In this document: in pieces, positions 1,553 through 63,452 of the stretch | Position numbering within the stretch: the first letter of the stretch is position 1 | Layout of the letters: every line of letters starts with the position of its first letter | DNA from: Scatophagus argus | Taxonomy: Eukaryota; Chordata; Actinopteri; Scatophagidae | DNA: 64,000 bases | Reading direction: 5' to 3' | Assembly: GCF_020382885.2 (NCBI RefSeq) | Contig: NC_058495.1 | Span: 7,309,627 to 7,373,626 of the forward strand | Translations under genes and position numbers: made by a program | The notes under the pieces: model-generated | What the model saw: only the letters and a program-made list of their open reading frames with translations | Told to the model about the DNA's origin: nothing | Databases searched by the model: none

Positions 1553-4500
1553 ATGTTCAGGTTTCTTGTGTTGACCTCTCTGGCAGCCCTCGGTAAGAAC
1601 TGCCTGATTCTTCCTCTCTTTTGACATTCTGAACACAAACAAACACACACTCGAAAACTTAATGTCAGACTGTAATGCCTTCTGTTTCTCTGCTTTGCTC
1701 AGTGCTGGCTGAGCTGGAGCACCAGCCCAGGTACATAGAGGATGACATCGTTGAGGGGAGAGTTGTGGGAGGTGAGGTGGCCAGACCAAACTCCTGGCCC
1801 TGGCAGGTACAGTAAGCTTTATCTGACTCTACAAAAGCAGCACAATGTTTACTAAAGTAAAAGTATCAATACCACACAAGTTAGTATATGTAAATAGAGT
1901 ACTTGGATAAATGTAATTTTTTTCATCAATTCTATACATAGATATCATTTGTTGAAACATATATCAGACATATATTCTGCATACACACAACCACAAAGTT
2001 CAAAAGATTACGTTTGATGCCTTTAAGAGTCTGTCAGTGTCAGGAATTCTGCCAAGTAGCATTTGGCAAAACAGTGAAATCTTCAGTTTCTTCTAGTTGT
2101 AATGCTCTTTGTTGTCGTTTCATTAGATCTCTCTTCAGTATCTGTCTGGCTCCAGCTACTACCACACCTGTGGAGGAACCCTGATCAGAAGAGGATGGGT
2201 CATGACCGCTGCTCACTGTGTGGACAGGTGGGAGTTTCGTTAATCACAGAATAGCTCCTGAATCTAAAATGAATAGAAATATGGATGAAGTAGCAGGATA
2301 TGCTTTCTCAAAGTGCATAGCCAAGATATTTTACATTTATTAACCATTAAATAAAACCTATGATTCTAGTTTCCAAATAAAGTTTCCATGTTAAATATTG
2401 ATTTTTAACAGATATCCTCAAGTTACTAGAGAGTACTAACTGCCAAACAGGTTAAGTATGAGTGGAAGAATAAAAAATGTCATGTCACGTGTCATCTTTT
2501 GTTCGTCCACAGTGCCAGGACTTGGCGTGTTGTTCTTGGAGATCATAACATCAACACCAATGAAGGCCGGGAACAGTACATGGGTGTGAGCCAGGTCTAC
2601 ATCCACCCTGGATGGAATAGCAACAACGTTGCTGGAGGGTTAGTAGTTCCTGGTTCCTTTGGTTTTGACCTGCAAACAACAGGCCACCTTCAAACAAAGC
2701 CACTACATAACAGTGAGCTGTCATGAGTACAAGGGAAAGATTTATTAGTCACTGACTTGAGGACATGTTGGTCTGACCCTCAGGTATGACATTGCTCTTC
2801 TGCGTCTGTCCTCTGATGCCACTCTCAACAACTACGTCCAGCTTGGCACCCTGCCCCCCTCTGGCCAGATCCTGCCCCACAACAACCCCTGCTACATCAC
2901 TGGATGGGGTCGCACCCAGAGTGAGTTTTACATAGTAACACATTTGCTGGATAAAACTCAGTGTTCAGTTCAGCATTTCAGGACTTCTCTTGTTGTCCCC
3001 AGCTGGAGGTCAGCTGTCTGCCCAGCTGAAGCAGGCCTCCTTGCCTGTTGTTGACTACAACACCTGCACCAGCTATGGATGGTGGGGCAGCACCGTGAAG
3101 AACACCATGATCTGTGCTGGTGGTGGCAGCGACTCTGGTTGCCAGGTGAGCCTCTGAGGTCTTAGAAAGGACTGTGTATGCCCTCACATTTAGGGTGTCT
3201 TTTTACTTAAAAGAGTGCCCAACCAATTTAGTATTGTGCTCCCATAATAGTGTCAAAATCATGATGGACAGTTTTATATGCTTTTTATTGTCAAACCTTG
3301 TGCCTAGATTAACTGTTAATAAATGATTAACCAAAGCTTTATAAAGAGGTTATGAGCCACTAATAAGAAAACCTTTTGGGCTGTTAGGATGTGATTAATC
3401 CTGTTGACTGAATAGACTGTATGGCCTCTTACTTTGTTGAAAGGGGCTGCAGAAGATTTGTATGATTATTAATTTATTTTTTAAAACAGCATATTGTAAT
3501 GATTAATACATATATTCAGCTATTTCAAAATGTTAAGGATAAGCACTAGGAAGGTTTCCTCAACCTGGCAACCTAAAATTTGGGCTTGTTAATGGCTTAT
3601 AACAGTTCTGTCAAGTGTTAGAAACTATTTTTGAAACATTTCTAAAACCATTAGTCACAGCTTATGAACACTTTATATGGGGAACCTGTTTCAGCAGCAG
3701 ATTCTTCCACAGCTGACACTTTGAACCCAATTCCTCCAGCTCTCCCCAAACCACAGTGTCACCCTGCAATTAGGACAGCAGGAATAATGTTTGGGTACAA
3801 GCAGGCTGGAGGAAATACTGAAAAGAACTAGTCAGAATGGAGTCCAACTTCACCATGACAAAGTGAGATTGAACGTCTCCCACTGAGCACAGGGCTGACC
3901 CCTTCCTGTCAAGGAAGAAATTTTGTAGGACACATGCAGGATTACTTGCTGCATCAGCAGGGGCATAAGTCAGTTACAATGATCCAGGCTAGTGCTTAAG
4001 CTGCATAAAGTGTCAAAATCTTGCAAGTTCATGTTCTGCACAAACTTGCTAGAGGCTATCTGAGATTAGATGGGCATATGGGAAGCAGTTGGGAATGATT
4101 AAACTGCATTGTGAAATGGGACATTTGCTCTCAACTCTGCTGAAAGATTATAAACTTTTAGCTCTGAGTTTTTTCTGTGATGTGTTTCCTCTGTATCCAG
4201 GGTGACTCCGGCGGCCCTCTGAACTGCAGTGTCAGTGGCCGGTGGGTTGTCCACGGTGTGACCAGCTTTGTGTCTGCCTCAGGCTGCAACACCTACAAGA
4301 AGCCTACCGTCTTCACCCGTGTCTCTGCCTACATCGGCTGGATGAACGGCGTCAGTATTAATACCTAACCCATGCGACTGAAAGAGCTAAAATGTTTATA
4401 AACATCCAAATATAATACAGTTCAAACTAGGTCACACATGATTTGAGTTACAGTTTAGCTGTGCACCTATAAATCACACTACATGCAGTAACTGGAGGAT

Positions 4501-9284: not shown

Positions 9285-9317
9285 ACCTAATGTGCATTAG
9301 GTAAATGCACATTAGGT
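9285..9317. repeat. perfect 14-bp inverted repeat abutting a SINE
   Basis: ACCTAATGTGCATT at 9285-9298 is repeated in reverse complement at 9304-9317 with a 5-base loop. It directly touches the end of the SINE that begins at 9318, suggesting a template-switch or insertion scar. Confidence 0.9.
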
Positions 9318-9463
9318 GGGAGGAAGCCGGAGTACCCGGAGAAAACCCACGCATGCACAGGGAGAACATGCAAACTCCACATAGAAGGGCCCAGACCGGG
9401 ATTCAAACCTGGAACCCTCTTGCTATGAGGCGACAGTGCTAACCACTGCACCACTGTGCCGCC
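9318..9463 (-). mobile_element. tRNA-derived SINE (fish type)
   Basis: On the minus strand it begins GGGCGGCACAGTGGTGCAGT and contains a Pol III B-box-like GGTTTGAATCCCGG in the tRNA-like head. It ends with the TCTCCGGGTACTCCGGCTTC stretch typical of a very abundant fish SINE. The B box is slightly mutated and the copy appears near full length for the head and body. It is not a functional tRNA gene. Confidence 0.85.
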
Positions 9464-12400
9464 CATAATAAAAACAGATAACAGTAAAAATGTACTTCTG
9501 TAAGTAATGAAAAGCAGTCTAAATCCATCTTTTATCAGACGTGCTCCACCAACCTCAGCTCAGTGCAGCCTCTTATGAATCTTATGACGACATGAGCATT
9601 GTGTCCAAATTGATGATGTATTCCAGCAGTACTGATTTAAAGATAGATAGAGTTTGTATGCATCATATTATTATTCACACAAAACTGCACTGTATTCTCT
9701 TGGCTTGTTGTGTTATTGTTTTTGTTTCCATTGTACTTTCTTACTTACTTTATATTCTGTTCACATGCTCCTATCATTTTCCTTGTCACTGATACATATC
9801 TTCCTTTACTGCAGTTTGCATATTTCATTCATGTTTATATGGTCATATTCTAATCTATATTTGGCACTTATCTGATGTGCTACAAATAAATATGATAAAT
9901 GTGAACATAATATTTAGATTGTAAATCTTGACAGATTGCACGAATGCCCAAACATGTTGAGGACTCTGCTTACAGGCATCACACCATGCCCTGTGGTGTC
10001 CAGCTTCAGGGAATGTTCAGCCTCAGTGTGCTGTGTTTCCTGCTGACTGCAGACCTGCTGGTAGTCGTTCAGCAGATTCACAAAGGCATCATCAGCTGGT
10101 ATATCCTCCCTCCTGCACAGCAGTGAGTAAAGATAAAGAAGGAGAGAGAAATCAGCATTGCACACTTCACAAGGCAATTATCAATTCATGATATGTAGAA
10201 TGCATCACATGTCAAGAGTAGATCTATTATTTATGGAAAATTCAGAAAGTTCTCTGGGTCCAACACAAGTAAACACATAAAAGTAACTCACTTGATTGGC
10301 CATTATGGTTAACTGCATATAGATTTAAGTTTGGATCAACTCTTGTACCATTTACTTACATGTGTGAGGCTGTGTGTGCATACATAAGTAGGGGCAAACG
10401 AGATAAAATGGTTCATTGTACCAAGGCAGTAAGAATAACATGAGAAGATACATGACCCCGGATGAAAGTGATAATAGCCACATGCATGAGAAATATAAAA
10501 CATTAAAATATACTAACATTACTAAGTTACATCAAGTACCTACTCTTTGTGGTTGTGGTTATGCTTGTACATCTAATGTACATTTTCAATTAATGGTAAA
10601 AACTTACTTTAAACATGGTAGTTCCACTATGATTAGAACATCCTCAGGAGACAGATGGGAAAAAAGACAGAACATCTCAATAAGGATTATTCTGAGCAAA
10701 ATTAGTTTTCTCCATCAGGGACAATTGGAAAGTACCAGCCTAACTAACAAACTGTTCACAATTTATGAGTTTATCGAAGCACACGCTGTATTGTGGGGGC
10801 AGAAAATATAAATACAGCCTGTACTACACAGAAAAAAAAAGAAAAACTGTTGTATGATTAATCCTTCCAGAGTGCAAAGCTCTGCCTATTTCATTTGGAT
10901 GAAAACAGTTATTACTCCCAAGGCTTCTGTAGAAAACTGTTACTGTTAAAGACGCTGCATTAAATCTGTGGTGTGAGTAAACACCACAACAGAAGACAAA
11001 TAATTGACCATATGGTGCTCTTTAAAGGTCTGTGAGCTGATTCATTAGTGATTTCGTATAATGTGATCCAGGCATACTGTGATTCAGTTAATCACAAAAA
11101 CAAATGAAGTGCAAACTAACTTAGCACTAATTACTGCTGTGAGTGTCGAAACACATAATTTAACAAGTGTAAGTGTGACACATTGAGAAATACTGAGGGG
11201 TGAACAGTGTGCACATGGAGAACAGCAACATATGTAAAAGTCAATGCACAATGTATGTAAAATACAATTATCATTTCAACTAGATTTATAGAAGGTTGTG
11301 AGTGTGTGATGAAGGTGCTCTTCAGTCACTGTGGAAAACCAGTTCTCATTACAAAAATCGAGTATTTTGAAGCTGAAATCTGTAACTCTTCACTCTGTCG
11401 GTTTAGAAAGACACTGGAGCATGTAGTGATGGACTTGCTATGTGGTCTCTCATTTCACTGTTAATATGCAGCAGTCTGGCAGAATGAAATGTAATGGTTA
11501 TCATATCTGTTCTACCAGACAGGACATGATGGGACAGGTGTGACATGCACTTTCTCCCTGCAAAGATTAATGTGTCTTCAACCAAAAGAAATTTAGCGTC
11601 TTATCATACTCCACCACTCAAGATGTAGTTTACATTAAACGTTACACATTTCGGTTCTCCATTTTAAAATGCCCATGTAAAGACTCCACACAGGTATTTT
11701 TTTCCTTTTTGATTTACACTCTAAATCTCTTCTAAGGATAAAGTTAGGTGGGACTTTACTGAAGAAATAATTTAAGAATTTGTAAGTCAATAAGAATGAA
11801 GGTGAAACTTATCCCATATTAACAGGTACAGCTAAACTAAAAGGATGCTCACACTCATTGTCTCATGTTTTATTTTGTTTCATGTTTTTTAGCTGTCTTC
11901 TTTCAACTTTAAGATCTGAGGATGTGTTACAGAGTTTATTTTTTTCCAAGTGGTCATGCAGATTTGCTGCCTGTTTGCTTTACAGTTTGCTTGTGGAACT
12001 GATTTACTGTTGCTCATTCAATAAATATCACCACACCACAGATGAACAGATCATGTGGGGTTCAGCCTCTACTGCAGTGATATGTAGTGCTGTTTGGGAA
12101 TCATCTTCCAGGTCCATATCCATGGAGGAAAGAGCAAATCTAAAGAAATAAATGACAGTCAAACTATTGTAATTTTCAGTACTAGAAACATTTTTTATGC
12201 TCATGAGAAATAAAATACAGAAATTAAATTTACAGTTTAAACAATAAATAATTTTTAATAACACACATATAGATAATCAATGCTGTGCAACATCTGTATT
12301 TGCTATATTTTGACAGCATTGTGAATAGCTCAATCCCAGAGATGTGAAAAATAAAAGGACAAACTTAATGAATGTAGATGCTTCCATGCAGTTAAAAAGA

Positions 12401-14269
12401 GTCACTAAGTGGTTTGATGAGAGAACTGAAGTGCTTGACAGTGCTGTTAATTATTATCATCAAGACACAAAGTGAAAGAACAACTATTGGAAAAATGGTA
12501 TTCACCCCCACAATAGGATTGCAGAGACTTCTATCAGTCGATGCAGAGCAGTATTTAACATCCTGAAGGCCACGTGCTATATTAGAAAAATAACCAGGTT
12601 TGCTGGTAATGTACGCTCTCAGTGCAGACACATCTCCACTGAACATCTAATTGATCACAGACTTTGCACTTCCTGATTCAAAGGTCATCTCACTGGGGCA
12701 AAACTGTGACCAAAAGGGGATTGATTCATTTTCAAAGCCACCGAAACCACTTTCACTACAGCTTAAGCAATATCGGACTACACAAGAACAACAAAGGGTT
12801 GATTAATGATTCTTCATGAAAAGCTCCATTTATGCCAGAGCGGTTTACCTGGAAGTAGAAGTCCAGGGCACCAATCATATCTGCTCCCATCGGATAACAC
12901 TGGTGAATGAAATATGATTATCATGACTACCTGACTGACTGAAGGGCTCGGCCTACAGTGGTTCTGATATACTCAACCAGATGATTTCAGAACCACAAAG
13001 TCAAGAGGACCCTGGCCAATGCATAAGGTTCTCTCTCTTAGTTTGGCCAGATTGGGGATTTTTGCTCTCCGCAAACAGCTCCCAGGTTCAAGAGGTCATG
13101 TGGATCCCCCCTAACATGATAATGTGGAAATGCACAAAGGGGTGTGGGCACTCACAAGGCATTGCTGAATCCCACATACTCTTGGCCTGCCATCTTTTTC
13201 ACAAACCCCATAATTTCGGTAAACAAAGACAAAATCATATGCGTACTGCAGCTCACTAATCACGTCACAGTTTCACATTCATGGTCTTAACAGGCAAGGA
13301 ACAGATAAGGGACTGCTTCTACTTACATAGTCAAACTTCTCTGCCTTGTTTGAATGAGACTGGAAACAAAATGTGGGTCACTTATTTCTGTAAATACATG
13401 ATGATTGTGGGACAGCACAAGGAAAGAACAGGATGTCAGATAACTGCAAAAACATAAAACTGTTGATTCTGAATATGTGAATATGTATGAAAATCTTTGA
13501 ATGTCACCAGGAAAAGCAGTCATGTTGTGTCAGTAAGACAAGATTTATTAAAAGGTTTCATAAATTAGGATGTTTTTGCTGCTGCTGCTGCTGTATTACA
13601 TTTCTCCCCCTTGGCTTTTTGTCATAGAGATCATCAACACATCAACAGACACGCTCAACGAGCTGCAGGCGCTTAACTAGAACATATTGCACTCCATATG
13701 GGGCTGGTGGGACTTGTTCATTACCCAAAACAAGCCAGTGATTTTCAATTAAACAAAAACAAGATGGATGTTTTTTCAGAATCAATTTGAACAATTTTCT
13801 AATTAAAGAAATGCTTCAATGTAATGAGAAATTGGTATATACAAATTAAAAATAATGACATTAACAGACTCATTTGTTCAAGAAATGTGTATGCAGCAAT
13901 CAGAAGAAGACATTTCACTTTGTTCAAATGAACTTTTATAATCAGAAAGTTGCTGACTCTCATCAGAAGAATGTAATCATACTCCACAAACTCCATGAAC
14001 AGAGGGATTTCTGTTGTCTTCTGGACGTAAAAATATAAAAAGGACTGAAACATTTGTACAGTTCAAGTTTGTAAAATTTTCTGTGTCACTGACTGACACC
14101 ATCATATCCTTGTGTTTACTTTGCGTTCATACTAAACTACAGCTTTATTAAAACCAAACACGAGTTCAATCAAAAAGCTAATGCTAATGAATAGAAAGAA
14201 CATTATGCATTGATTATTTGCTTCAGCACCAGTATGTTGCATCTGTTTAGCCAAGGACATGTTGTGCAG

Positions 14270-14450
14270 TGGTCATCAGTCTGTTAAGGTACACCATAGA
14301 CAGTCTAGACTAACACACAGAGACAGACAATCATTCACACTCACCTACAGAAAATTTACCGATTTACCTGCATGTCTTTGGACTGCGGGAGGAAACCAGA
14401 GCATCTTAAGAAAACCCAGGCACAGGGAGAACATGCAAACCCTGAAACGT
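14270..14450. mobile_element. diverged SINE fragment, same body type as at 9.3 kb
   Basis: Contains ACATTCACACTCACCTAC-like text followed by CCTGCATGTCTTTGGACTG at about 14368-14386, GGGAGGAAACC and GGGAGAACATGCAAAC near 14427. This is the conserved body of the SINE seen intact at 9318-9463, lacking a recognisable tRNA head. It sits in an intron of the glutaminase relic. Confidence 0.7.
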
Positions 14451-15624
14451 CCGATACCAGAATCATGTAACTGACAAATCTGTTGAGACTGAGTGTTAAT
14501 TCATGGTCTTGGAACAGTGAATTTCATCAAAGGTCAATTCAACAGTTGTAGCTATAGTTGGAACTTTCAATCATAACACACAGTCATGTCAAATCAGTGT
14601 CAATTTTTAAGGCAACAAGGATGAGATGTCTTAAAAGAGTTCTGGAAAATGTTTTATTTAAACATCTAGAATTCAGTGACTGCTGTAATAACTCCATCTG
14701 CTTAGTAAGTTTGTGTGATTCAGCTGAAAGCTCCTGAACAGCTACTAAGTGGACCTTGCACTGAGATTGGTTTGTCAGGTACAAATTTGCTTTTCTTACC
14801 TCTGGTCATCCACAGTCACACCCACAGCTGTGGGCTAAACTGGGGAATGTAGTCTGCAACCTAAAGCCAAGATACAAAAGAGACTCACAGTAACAGGCGA
14901 CTAAACCACACCAACTGGTGGAGCCGTGGTTGAGTAGTTGTGATAGAGTTCCCACGTATGACTACCTGACCAAGCGCTCAGCTGTCAATCATGTTGTTTC
15001 ACCCACTATTTGCAGCATGAGACATTACATTTGCTGCAAAGTGGTATAAAGTGGGCAGCATACGTAAAAGAAAGCCCATTTTTAAGTGTCCTCGACTACC
15101 TTAGCAGAGAGCATATATTCCAACAACAATGTTATGCTTTATGTTGTCACACTATGTCACTGGGACCTCTACAGATTACACAATTAACAATTCATTTGAT
15201 AATATCAGGAACAAGTAAACAATACATGTTTACTTTTCCATCACTTTGGTTTTACACTGTGTTGGAGATTTCATTTATCCTCTGTGCAACCACATCAAAT
15301 TTGTGTCTGAAGGCCTGGATCAGCAGGATGATGTTTTCACTAACACACCTGAAAAAAAGGAAAAAGCATAATGCAAAGGCACTCAGAGGCTCTTACTAGG
15401 AATGAAATACTTTGATTTCACTATTATGTACTCTGCTATATACTTTGTGTGTGTAATGGTTTTAACTATTACAGTGGCTGCATGCAGTTGTTGATGGTTT
15501 GTTAGAACACTCCATCAATGTATTTTTTTTTTCATACATTTGAATACATCTTTTTCTTATTTAATATTTATTCCTACTTATAATTATCTCCAATATCAGT
15601 GTTGTGATGCAAGATGTGATTTTG

Positions 15625-15940
15625 CCAACATCTTGTCAACTATTGTGAGAAGCTTGTGGAAGGATATCTAAAATGTTTGACCCAAGTCATACAGTTTAAA
15701 GGCAATGGAACCAAATACTTTTGAAACGTATATAAGCTTCTGACTTTGAAGAAAGTAATAAAAAACTGTCTAAAAAATTATCTCTCTCATTATTCTGGCA
15801 TTTAGCAAATAGAAATAATTTTGGGAATCCTAACTGACCTAAAACAGGAAAAATTTCATCTGATTTAATGTCAGACAGTGAAAAAAAAAAAGATTATGTG
15901 TCTTTTTATACAGTGCATGTAAACTTCTGGTTCAACTGTA
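15625..15940 (-). mobile_element. truncated Tc1-like DNA transposon end
   Basis: Read on the minus strand from 15938 it starts CAGTTGAACCAGAAGTTTAC, a Tc1-family terminal inverted repeat flanked by the TA target at 15939-15940. A second internal direct copy (TCAGAAGCTTATATACGTTT) lies near 15750-15725, giving the IR-DR layout. The element breaks off near 15625 with no transposase. Its outer end lies only 17 bp from the first glutaminase exon relic (15956), so it probably landed in or next to that exon. Confidence 0.85.
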
Positions 15941-17658
15941 GATAGATAGATAGTATGAAATGGGCACCTGCTCTTTTCCTCCTGTGATGCTGTAGAAAAG
16001 CATGTCTCCTACTCCAGAACTGGGGGACTTTGAATGGACTTGTTCAAGTGAACAGTAAACTCTTGTAAACAGCAGTCATTCTTGTGTTTCATTCACTTAA
16101 AATGACTGCTATCAAAAATTGACCACATTTCTAACACTAATTGTTAACTGCTGTTCCTTACGTGTTTACATTATTTACCCTGTACGCTGGTCTGTTCCCA
16201 TAATATTGGTGACAAGCTGGTGATTGATTTGGTTTGGAATGCAATGCAGCAACGCAACAAATAAAATTTACTCAAGTACTGTGCTTATGTACACAGCTGA
16301 GTTACTTTTACCTGAGCAATTTCTTTTCGTGCCACTGTTAAGCATTATACTTGAAATGTATTACAGAGCTTTAATTGATCATGCTAGTAATGACAAAATA
16401 AAAAATGCATGTGAAATTCATGAATAGCTATAGATCAGAGGTTTTCAGAATCAGAGACTGTGGGTCTTAGTCTTGTTCAGTTCCTTGATGCCCATGGGAT
16501 CGTGATGATGTTATTTGATTCTATACATACTAAACAAGTTAGCCAAGAAAGCCTGGTATTGCTGTTTGTTTGTCATAACATCAGCTACACCAAATACATC
16601 AGAAAACACTCTGTCCTAAGAAAGTTATTAGTTTTTGACCCTGGGAAAGATTGAAAAACAAAGTAAAATCCACCAAAACTGCTGTATCTCTAACCAAATC
16701 ACACACATCTCGGCTATTCTACCTGCGACTGATAAGTAAAGTAATAACAAATGTAATGATTTTTCCCTCTCATTCACTGAGCCTCCCCTGAAACTGTTGG
16801 AGTTCCCTGAGGCTTGCAAAAAAATACCAATACTTTTCCAAAGCACCTGAAAACTTCCTTCCTTCACACGCAGGTAACACTCGTGTGTGTAGCCAACTCC
16901 TGTGTGTGAATTCACACCTGCAGGAAGTTATTGACACACAGCTGTTCATCACAACACAAATGTTCACATTAAAATCATGTGAAAAAGACTTGAAAATGCT
17001 CATGATTTTCAGGAGCTGTGGAAAACGTTTGTTGAACCACTTTGAGATTTTGAATTTAACAAAAAAGTGCCTCGTCCCAATGTGGAGCAACACTTGAACT
17101 TAAATCAAAACATGAAAATCACAAACACAGTTTTTCATATATCTTCATAGATGTTCACATTCAAAAAGGCAGTTGAGAAACCATCATGATGTAGCTCCAC
17201 TTCACTGAGTGAAAGACATTTTTTCATGGTATTTCTGTTGTGTTCACAATAAGCTGTTGTTAACATTCTGAGAAATACAGCTTCTTGATAGTAAAATCCT
17301 GTGTGTTTTGCTTATAATGTTTAATATATTAAGGATCCATATCAAGGAACTTAAATAACAGTGTCAAAAGGCACAGCACAGTGTTAATAAACAAAACAAT
17401 AATTCCATTGTGAATTATACAATACATTTTCATTGTTTTTTTTATATATTGTCTAACTATTTAATACTTTTACATGGCAGATTATGCTCATATAAATGGA
17501 ATAATGGCAATGTCAGATCACTCCATGGCCAATGTAGATAAGGTGTTAGATATGGGTATTTTAAAAGGCAAAATATTAATTTCTTTAAGCTAAACTTTGT
17601 ACTGCATTAAAATGACACAGAAAGACTGATAACTTCAAGTCTTTTAAGTTAACATGAG

Positions 17659-61165: not shown

Positions 61166-62079
61166 CTGATGCCCGCAAACACGCACAAACACACACACAC
61201 ACACACACACACAGACCTTAGATTAATAACATTTTGAAAAGGTTGTTAAAAGTTGCTGTGTACTCTTCCACATCTGTTATTTGAACACAAATCACAAATT
61301 ACTTTAATTCTCTTTGGCTCCAAGAACCAAAACTATAATCCATTAATCATCGAAAGTATTTCCCATCAATCAAATGTCAATTAGGGTAGATGTACTGCAT
61401 ATATGCATTCATGTCTGTCATCTGAAGTGTATTATACTGACAACAAATTTCTCCTCAGGCACAGTAAAGATCCCTATCAACCAGAAGCACACACACTTCA
61501 ACACATCTAAATGAAAGAAAATTGCTCCGTAAACTACAGCTTTTGGTTTGACCTGGTTAATAAGAATGCTGTCAGAACAACAGCTCTTTCACTTCAGGAG
61601 CTGCACTCTTATCAGTTAGTTAATAATTAATACAATCATGAGCCCAGGCTGAAATTGATGGCCTAAGATGTTTGGTATTTGGAGAATAATAAGTTAATTA
61701 TATTCATCTTGTCAGAGCAGCTGCCTGCTTGTCCCTCTGAAGAGCTTTCCTTTCACCTCTCAAAAACTCAACTGGACTGACATGAACAGGTTTCAAGGAG
61801 AGGCAACTGTGAATATTTATCTGTCAATCAAACTTGATGATTAATGATTCTTATCTCTTTAAACCCACCTACAGTTTTGCTGAAATCTCTCCACTAAATC
61901 TTTTTCCTGGCATACTACAGTACATTATGCATGACATCATTAAATGAGACAAATTTAATTCAAAAAAAAAAAAAAAAATTATCACAATCACATTATATTG
62001 TGAAAGGTTTGTTAATAAGGTATATTCTCATGTCATTACAACTTAAAACTTATCACTATTATAAGAAGAAAATTGTTTT

Positions 62080-62570
62080 GTTATGTATGTCCTAAAAACA
62101 TAACATTGCATTCTAAATACACAGACAGCACCGCAGCTATAACAGCTTCCACTCTTCTGGGAAGACTTTTCACAACATTTTGTGGGAATTTTTGCCCCTT
62201 CATGCAGTAGAGAATTTGTGACGTCACACACTGATGTTGGACCAAAAGGCCTGGCTCACAATCTCCATTCCAGTTCACCTCAAAGGTGCTGGGGTTGAAG
62301 TCATTTCTCTGTGTGGGCCAGTCAAGTTCTTCCTCACCAAACTGCTCCAACCATGTCTTTATGGACTTTGCTTTGTGCACTGGGGCACAGTCAGGCTGGA
62401 ATAGAAAAGAGCCTTCACCAAACTGTTGCCACTAAGTTGGAAGCACAGCATCGTCCAAAATGTCTCTGAAGCACTAAGATTTCCCTTCACTGGAAGTAAG
62501 GGCCCAAACCAAAAAAAAAAAAACAGCCCCATAAAGAGGTGTGTCCGAATACTTTCATCTATAAAGTGTG
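62080..62570 (-). mobile_element. Tc1-like DNA transposon remnant with transposase C-terminus
   Basis: The minus-strand frame at 62380-62081 reads HKAKSIKTWLEQFGEEELDW and ends with SLPRRVEAVIAA, the C-terminal part of a Tc1-type (DD34E) transposase. The catalytic block is degraded (PTQRNDFNPS for PAQSPDLNP). Upstream (62380-62500) more coding text is readable. A terminal-repeat-like stretch at 62541-62570 (AAAGTATTCGGACACAC on the minus strand) sits far too close, so most of the 5' half is deleted. The family differs from the element at 15.6-15.9 kb. Confidence 0.85.
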
Positions 62571-63452
62571 TCTCTGTGTCCCTTTTTACTATTCTGGCAT
62601 CGCAGTAGGTTTAATAGTTCAAAAACAATAAGGCACTGCAGGTTTCACCTTATCAGTCGTATTAGTAAAAAAGGGCAGGTATCTCTGATACAGTATATTG
62701 TGCTGTTTGTTTACTGTCAGTCTTTCACCTTACGTTCTTTCAGCATTTCTCTTTCTATCAATACCACCTCTCTTCTCCTGTTCTTTTTCTCTCATGGGAG
62801 ACAGAATAAATATGCAGGTGTTGCATTACACCAACTTTGGCTTTGTTTCTAAACAAGCAATTACAGATCATCAGCTGCAGAAACACCAAATCATAATGTG
62901 CGGGCAGTCAGGCTGACAAACAGCATGGCATGTCGTCGTTCAGGACTACAAAAGCAGGTGTGTGAATGTATGTGTGTTGCATTGTTTTGATGGCAGCGTT
63001 GGCTCGTCTTTGGCAGCGAGACAAGAGAAACAGACGGGAGTCAGCCAAAGGTGAATGTTAGATTAGTGCATCTGAAATGACAAGAGGAACTGGCTCAAAA
63101 TTGTAGAATTGGGCTTGACGACAAAAGTGGGTTAAATAATGACAATTCCAATATGCCCCACTCTAAAATAGGGTGTAAGGTAACTGAGGTCAAAGGGTGG
63201 AAAGAGTTCAGAAGGAGGAGAAGGAAGAAGATGACAAGGAGAAAATAATGTGGGGGAGGACTGAGAAACACTGGCGAGAAGAGGAAGAGATGAATGGAAA
63301 GGATGAAGAGGGTGGGGTTAAAGGCTTAAGAAAGGATTGTGCTTATCTAATAATTAAAATAATTATCTGTAATCACCTTCCTCTACACAGAAGAAAAAAA
63401 TGAAAGCCTCTCTCATAATCTAAGAGAATAAGCGAGTCAAAAAAAGGAGGAA

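Follow-up and report, generated by a model that had tools for sequence, protein, structure and literature searches.

Zebrafish carries two gls2 genes, gls2a and gls2b (PMC6130883, PMC6197330), both of which are reported to be expressed (PMC6197330), and GLS2 is reported absent from Neoaves (PMC10722388). Here we describe the relic of a glutaminase gene in a window of 64,000 nucleotides (the whole stretch of DNA analysed, bases 7309627-7373626 of contig C3) from the fish Scatophagus argus, together with the glutaminase genes found across the 570.7 Mb, 48-contig genome. With a probability of roughly 0.92, we consider this relic to be a pseudogene of a second gls2, the whole-genome-duplication ohnolog of the gls2 gene on contig C8, inactivated later in the lineage. 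Positions are those of the window unless a contig is named.

Architecture and disablement of the relic

Protein-to-DNA alignment placed ordered blocks matching human GLS2 and GLS on the minus strand at 16042-10007, and tblastn of both human proteins against the window likewise returned matches in order (best E 1.3e-5). All eight glutaminase peptides listed in an initial annotation of this DNA were located on that strand in the order it gave. Chance was assessed with a protein-to-DNA chain tolerating frameshifts, introns, and lost exons. The relic region scored 553.75, compared to a mean of 241 (standard deviation 13, maximum 278) across 100 first-order Markov shuffles, 220-276 across 12 control slices (taken on both strands at six places from 17 to 58 kb), 236 when the relic region was read on its plus strand, and 227 for a reversed profile. 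Given these scores, the glutaminase alignment is far above chance, and in this comparison with shuffled sequence, which the initial annotation had itself proposed, the blocks also fell in order. The chain program applies a mild intron cost, so that about 241 of the score is background and several blocks printed in gaps are chance.

Numbered by the exon order of C8 gls2, the recognisable exons are 2, 4, 5, 8, 9, 11, the start of 12, 15, 16, and 18 (the last), all on the minus strand. Exon 2 (15959-16042; GDMLFYSITGGKEQVPI) corresponds to about residues 59-89 of human GLS2 and matches C8 gls2 in DNA at 16006-15957 (74%, E 2.4e-4). Exon 4 (15234-15348, GLS2 about 135-178) keeps an acceptor AG and a donor GT at the C8 positions and contains a TAA stop (15254-15252) and a 5-codon deletion; exon 5 (14800-14860, GLS2 about 179-205) also keeps AG and GT, with a frameshift, a TGA stop (14818-14816), and a 3-codon deletion. 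Exon 8 (13327-13359; SHSNKAEKFDY) is open, retains both splice sites, and has a C8 DNA match at 13371-13315 (82%, E 1.5e-10), while exon 9 (13156-13211; MGFVKKMAGQEYVGFSNA; C8 DNA match 13211-13147, 78%) has kept its donor GT and lost its acceptor AG. Exon 11 (12849-12899; CYPMGADMIGALDFYFQ) is again open with both splice sites (C8 DNA match 12902-12845, 78%). In exon 16 (12067-12139, right edge approximate; FALSSMDMDLEDDSQTALHITAVE) the acceptor AG is kept and the donor GT gone, and the last exon (10007-10112; REDIPADDAF..VNLLNDYQ..ETQHTEAEHSL), which encodes a GLS2-like C-terminus, has a kept acceptor AG and a 7-codon deletion. The small in-frame exon at 13359-13327, the last exon at 10112-10007, and the positions of three stops are additions to the blocks first annotated.

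The remaining unit, at 12617-12703, joins the first 12 codons of exon 12 (12703-12668; FCPSEMTFESGS) directly to exon 15 (KSVIN*MF..SGDVSALR, with a TAG stop at 12649-12647), which ends at 12617. The start of exon 12 abuts exon 15, and a deletion has therefore removed the sequence in between. The exon 12 acceptor AG is kept, and the exon 15 donor is without GT. The initial annotation placed introns between its blocks, and introns persist in the relic, but FESGS and SGDVSALR have been fused by this deletion and have no intron between them any longer.

Checked against C8, the relic retains the acceptor AG at seven of eight splice sites (gone at exon 9) and the donor GT at five of seven (absent at exons 15 and 16). 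With introns and splice sites at the parental positions, it is an unprocessed pseudogene; a processed retrocopy, considered as a candidate, is ruled out since the introns persist. As a separate observation, the exon 15 donor of C8 gls2 is itself GC (GAG|GCAAGT, C8:7255378-7255396), suggesting a GC-AG intron, and the relic likewise has GC at this donor (AGA|GCGTAC).

Beyond the three in-frame stops, hand alignment identified small coding deletions in exons 4, 5, 15, 16, and 18. For exons 3, 6, 7, 10, 13, 14, 17, and the rest of 12, no trace rose above 100 shuffles of the expected intervals: the observed score was reached by 90, 97, 99, and 62 shuffles for exons 3, 6, 7, and 10, and by 75, 93, 74, and 11 for exons 13, 14, 17, and the rest of 12, respectively, while each of four surviving exons used as controls exceeded all 100. 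The exons not found include exon 6 (97 of 100 shuffles equalled or beat its score), which bears the motif PFCLQSCVKP, whose serine we take to be catalytic; its absence indicates a pseudogene rather than a working gene. Among positions identical across five intact glutaminases, 76 of the 99 covered are retained. Judging from the sequence, the glutaminase gene at this locus is dead: stops interrupt its frame, splice sites and pieces of coding sequence have been lost, and several exons are missing. The initial annotation had reached the same view from frame breaks, an in-frame stop, and exon loss, and the three stops, the frameshift, and the untraceable serine-motif exon bear it out.

Glutaminase genes of the genome and affiliation of the relic

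A six-frame genome search with Pfam PF04960 yielded 11 matches at four places, on C24, C8, C11, and C7; this search did not recover the relic, and equally decayed further copies could escape it. Besides the relic, these places correspond to two gls genes (C24 and C11), one gls2 (C8), and one divergent gene (C7). Summed bits were higher for human GLS than for GLS2 at both C24 (956 vs. 815) and C11 (1026 vs. 900). A group of C24, C11, and human GLS excluded C8. In the full alignment its support was 96 when C7 was included and 100 when C7 was left out; in the columns covered by the relic it was 90 without C7 and 45 with C7, which then falls inside the group. The exons found of the C8 gene are open and span most of human GLS2 residues 66-602, and a SPRY-domain gene, read as spryd4, adjoins it; one report lists Mip, Spryd4, and Gls2 as neighbouring genes in opossum (PMC3141428). 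Similarity alone being insufficient, we assign the C8 gene to GLS2 because the GLS group excludes it and because of the adjoining spryd4, and regard it as an apparently complete gls2. Separately, C7:863865-868477 (minus strand) holds a divergent gene of glutaminase-like type that may correspond to Glsl, a gene predicted in zebrafish and reported to cluster with neither gls nor gls2 (PMC6197330).

The relic and C8 gls2 match in DNA at seven exons, in order and across shared exon edges, the weakest of the seven being exon 5 (14863-14840, E 0.17 only). All matches to the C8 stretch with E 0.002 or better are confined to exons and exon edges, and another four, which either break the order or lie away from exons (E 0.17-0.52), were read as chance. 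Exons 15 (beyond its join to 12), 16, and 18 had no DNA match of their own to C8, with none significant for the last exon. In phylogenetic trees, for which the rows of C8, C11, C24, and C7 consist of tblastn pieces, so that a few edge residues may be intronic, and in which column 333 of C11 and C24 was set by hand to the residue shown by tblastn, the best tree pairs the relic with C8, and an earlier tree gave the same best grouping (support 56 and 45). The approximately unbiased (AU) test rejected grouping of the relic with the teleost gls pair (p 0.0103 in the full alignment, 0.0037 in the relic columns) and with human GLS (p 0.015 and 0.0144, respectively). These results place the relic outside the GLS clade and with GLS2. 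The initial description of a decayed, unprocessed GLS2-type gene was right, in agreement with the introns, the splice sites, and the match to C8 gls2.

Origin, neighbours, and alternative readings

Two further genes link C3 and C8. An exon of an ASC channel family gene, which we take to be asic1, lies at C8:7263617-7263925 (plus strand), 6.7 kb beyond gls2, and at C3:7288657-7288965 (minus strand), 31 kb beyond the relic; the two are 77% identical, the C3 locus is the best other match for the C8 exon (10 matches in all), and order and orientation relative to gls2 are identical on both contigs. A gene with WW and HECT domains, presumably itch, occurs both in the window and at 20.6 Mb of C8, with 85% identity over the piece compared (24 matches in all). 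Bloc1s1, named as a neighbour by the initial annotation and recognised here by Pfam GCN5L1, matched the genome only once, in the window. This mixture of shared and unshared neighbours is consistent with two duplicated chromosomes from which genes were lost separately. The suggestion of a lost duplicate, one of two origins first proposed, is supported by the tree tests, by double-conserved synteny, and by the similarity to C8 in DNA.

Differences between the relic and C8 fall at codon positions 1, 2, and 3 in 20, 16, and 43 cases over 107 codons, and this third-position excess suggests coding constraint for much of the gene's life after duplication. Branch lengths are 0.45-0.49 substitutions per site for the relic and 0.23-0.30 for C8. 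From the best-preserved exons, where the visible evidence lies, the gene loss looks younger than the duplication. A whole-genome duplication, most likely the teleost one, would have produced two gls2 genes, on C3 and C8; the C3 copy would have been inactivated later in the Scatophagus argus lineage and the C8 copy kept. The loss was probably tolerated since the other gls2 remained, and the relic stretch is presumably functionless now.

Several observations weigh against this origin and were considered alongside the alternatives. On the side of affiliation, tree support for pairing the relic with C8 is modest (59-73), the AU test also allows the relic to be the sister of human GLS2 (p 0.21-0.22), and the C8 gene itself has slightly more summed bits with human GLS than with GLS2 (840 vs. 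810). Moreover, at 44 sites differing between human GLS and GLS2 the relic is level, with 14 GLS2 and 15 GLS residues, a count that initially left open an origin from gls. In addition, neither a place next to the entire GLS clade nor a pairing with C7 is rejected for the relic by the Kishino-Hasegawa (KH) and Shimodaira-Hasegawa (SH) tests. A derivation from kidney-type gls or from the divergent glutaminase-like gene nevertheless appears extremely improbable: the AU test rejects these two placements as well (p 0.0043-0.027) and hence all four of this kind (p 0.0037-0.027, two alignments), diagnostic sites of the last exon favour GLS2 (11 vs. 6 of 18), and the small exon resembles that of C8 (PHSNKAERFDY) and not those of C24 (SASNAEKFDY) and human GLS (GVNNAEKFDY), C11 and C7 not being recovered there. 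A gls origin was thus disfavoured by the tree tests. The other origin first proposed, a unitary loss in which the relic was the only gls2 and liver-type glutaminase is gone from this fish, would suit a locus so clearly dead, and the absence of GLS2 reported for Neoaves (PMC10722388) implies that some vertebrates live without it. A search of the rest of the genome, which the initial annotation had suggested, instead recovered the C8 gene, which falls outside the GLS clade, adjoins the putative spryd4, and has open exons covering most of human GLS2 residues 66-602. Unitary loss is therefore unsupported, because of this apparently complete gls2, and we regard it as extremely unlikely.

On the side of synteny, asic1 is the sole near neighbour shown to be common to both loci, itch on C8 sits 13 Mb away from gls2, and the spryd4 piece has its sole close match on C8 (next matches at most 41% identical, barring one short piece at 46%). 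A comparison of window open reading frames (at least 30 amino acids) with the 30 kb around C8 gls2 found at E 1e-4 only the glutaminase exons and a transposase remnant. This single near neighbour, and a split that the tree leaves undated, would be compatible with segmental duplication of gls2 rather than whole-genome duplication. The doubling of both asic1 and itch on the same two contigs (itch at 85% protein identity) argues against it, as does the restriction of the better C8 DNA matches to exons and their edges, and we judge a segmental origin very unlikely. It also seems highly improbable that the relic is still transcribed and, through its surviving splice sites, yields a spliced non-coding RNA with a role, e.g., acting on the C8 gls2 messenger. 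A whole-genome-duplication origin of the relic is retained as the most likely.

Other features of the window include a short-chain dehydrogenase gene next to the relic, putatively the rdh5 named by the initial annotation, and, at 2430-3157 (plus strand), open reading frames for a serine protease of trypsin type (2430-2726 by Pfam Trypsin, the remainder by eye). The stretches at 9300-9475 and 14225-14470 are mutually similar by eye and resemble what we assume to be a common fish interspersed repeat; the latter falls in the gap of missing relic exons 6 and 7. A transposase-like remnant at 62046-62610 (minus strand), presumably of Tc1 type, is similar to one at about C8:7267282-7267685.

Comparison with known systems

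As a pseudogene of a duplicated gene the relic is ordinary and exemplifies a known kind of gene loss. In it, the slow decay of one member of a duplicated pair can still be read, and the surviving partner lies in the same genome. Loss of a sole gls2, the striking part of the earlier interpretation, is not supported, and knowledge of glutamine metabolism is unchanged by the relic. Annotation of fish glutaminases should leave this locus out of gene counts. Loss of a fish gls2 was not mentioned in the titles or abstract openings found in our literature search, most subscription journals lying outside it.

The closest system is the C8 gls2 of the same genome, which shares with the relic its exon order and edges, DNA similarity over seven exons, and asic1 downstream in the same orientation. 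Unlike the relic, in which seven exons and the greater part of an eighth have left no trace, the C8 gene shows open frames in the exons recovered and adjoins a SPRY-domain gene (spryd4). The two gls2 copies of zebrafish represent the expected state of S. argus before the loss, and since zebrafish still has both, losing one would be an ordinary fate; both zebrafish copies are reported to be expressed, whereas one of the two in S. argus is dead. Neoaves are likewise a vertebrate lineage from which a GLS2 gene has been lost, but while GLS2 is reported absent there, S. argus keeps another gls2.

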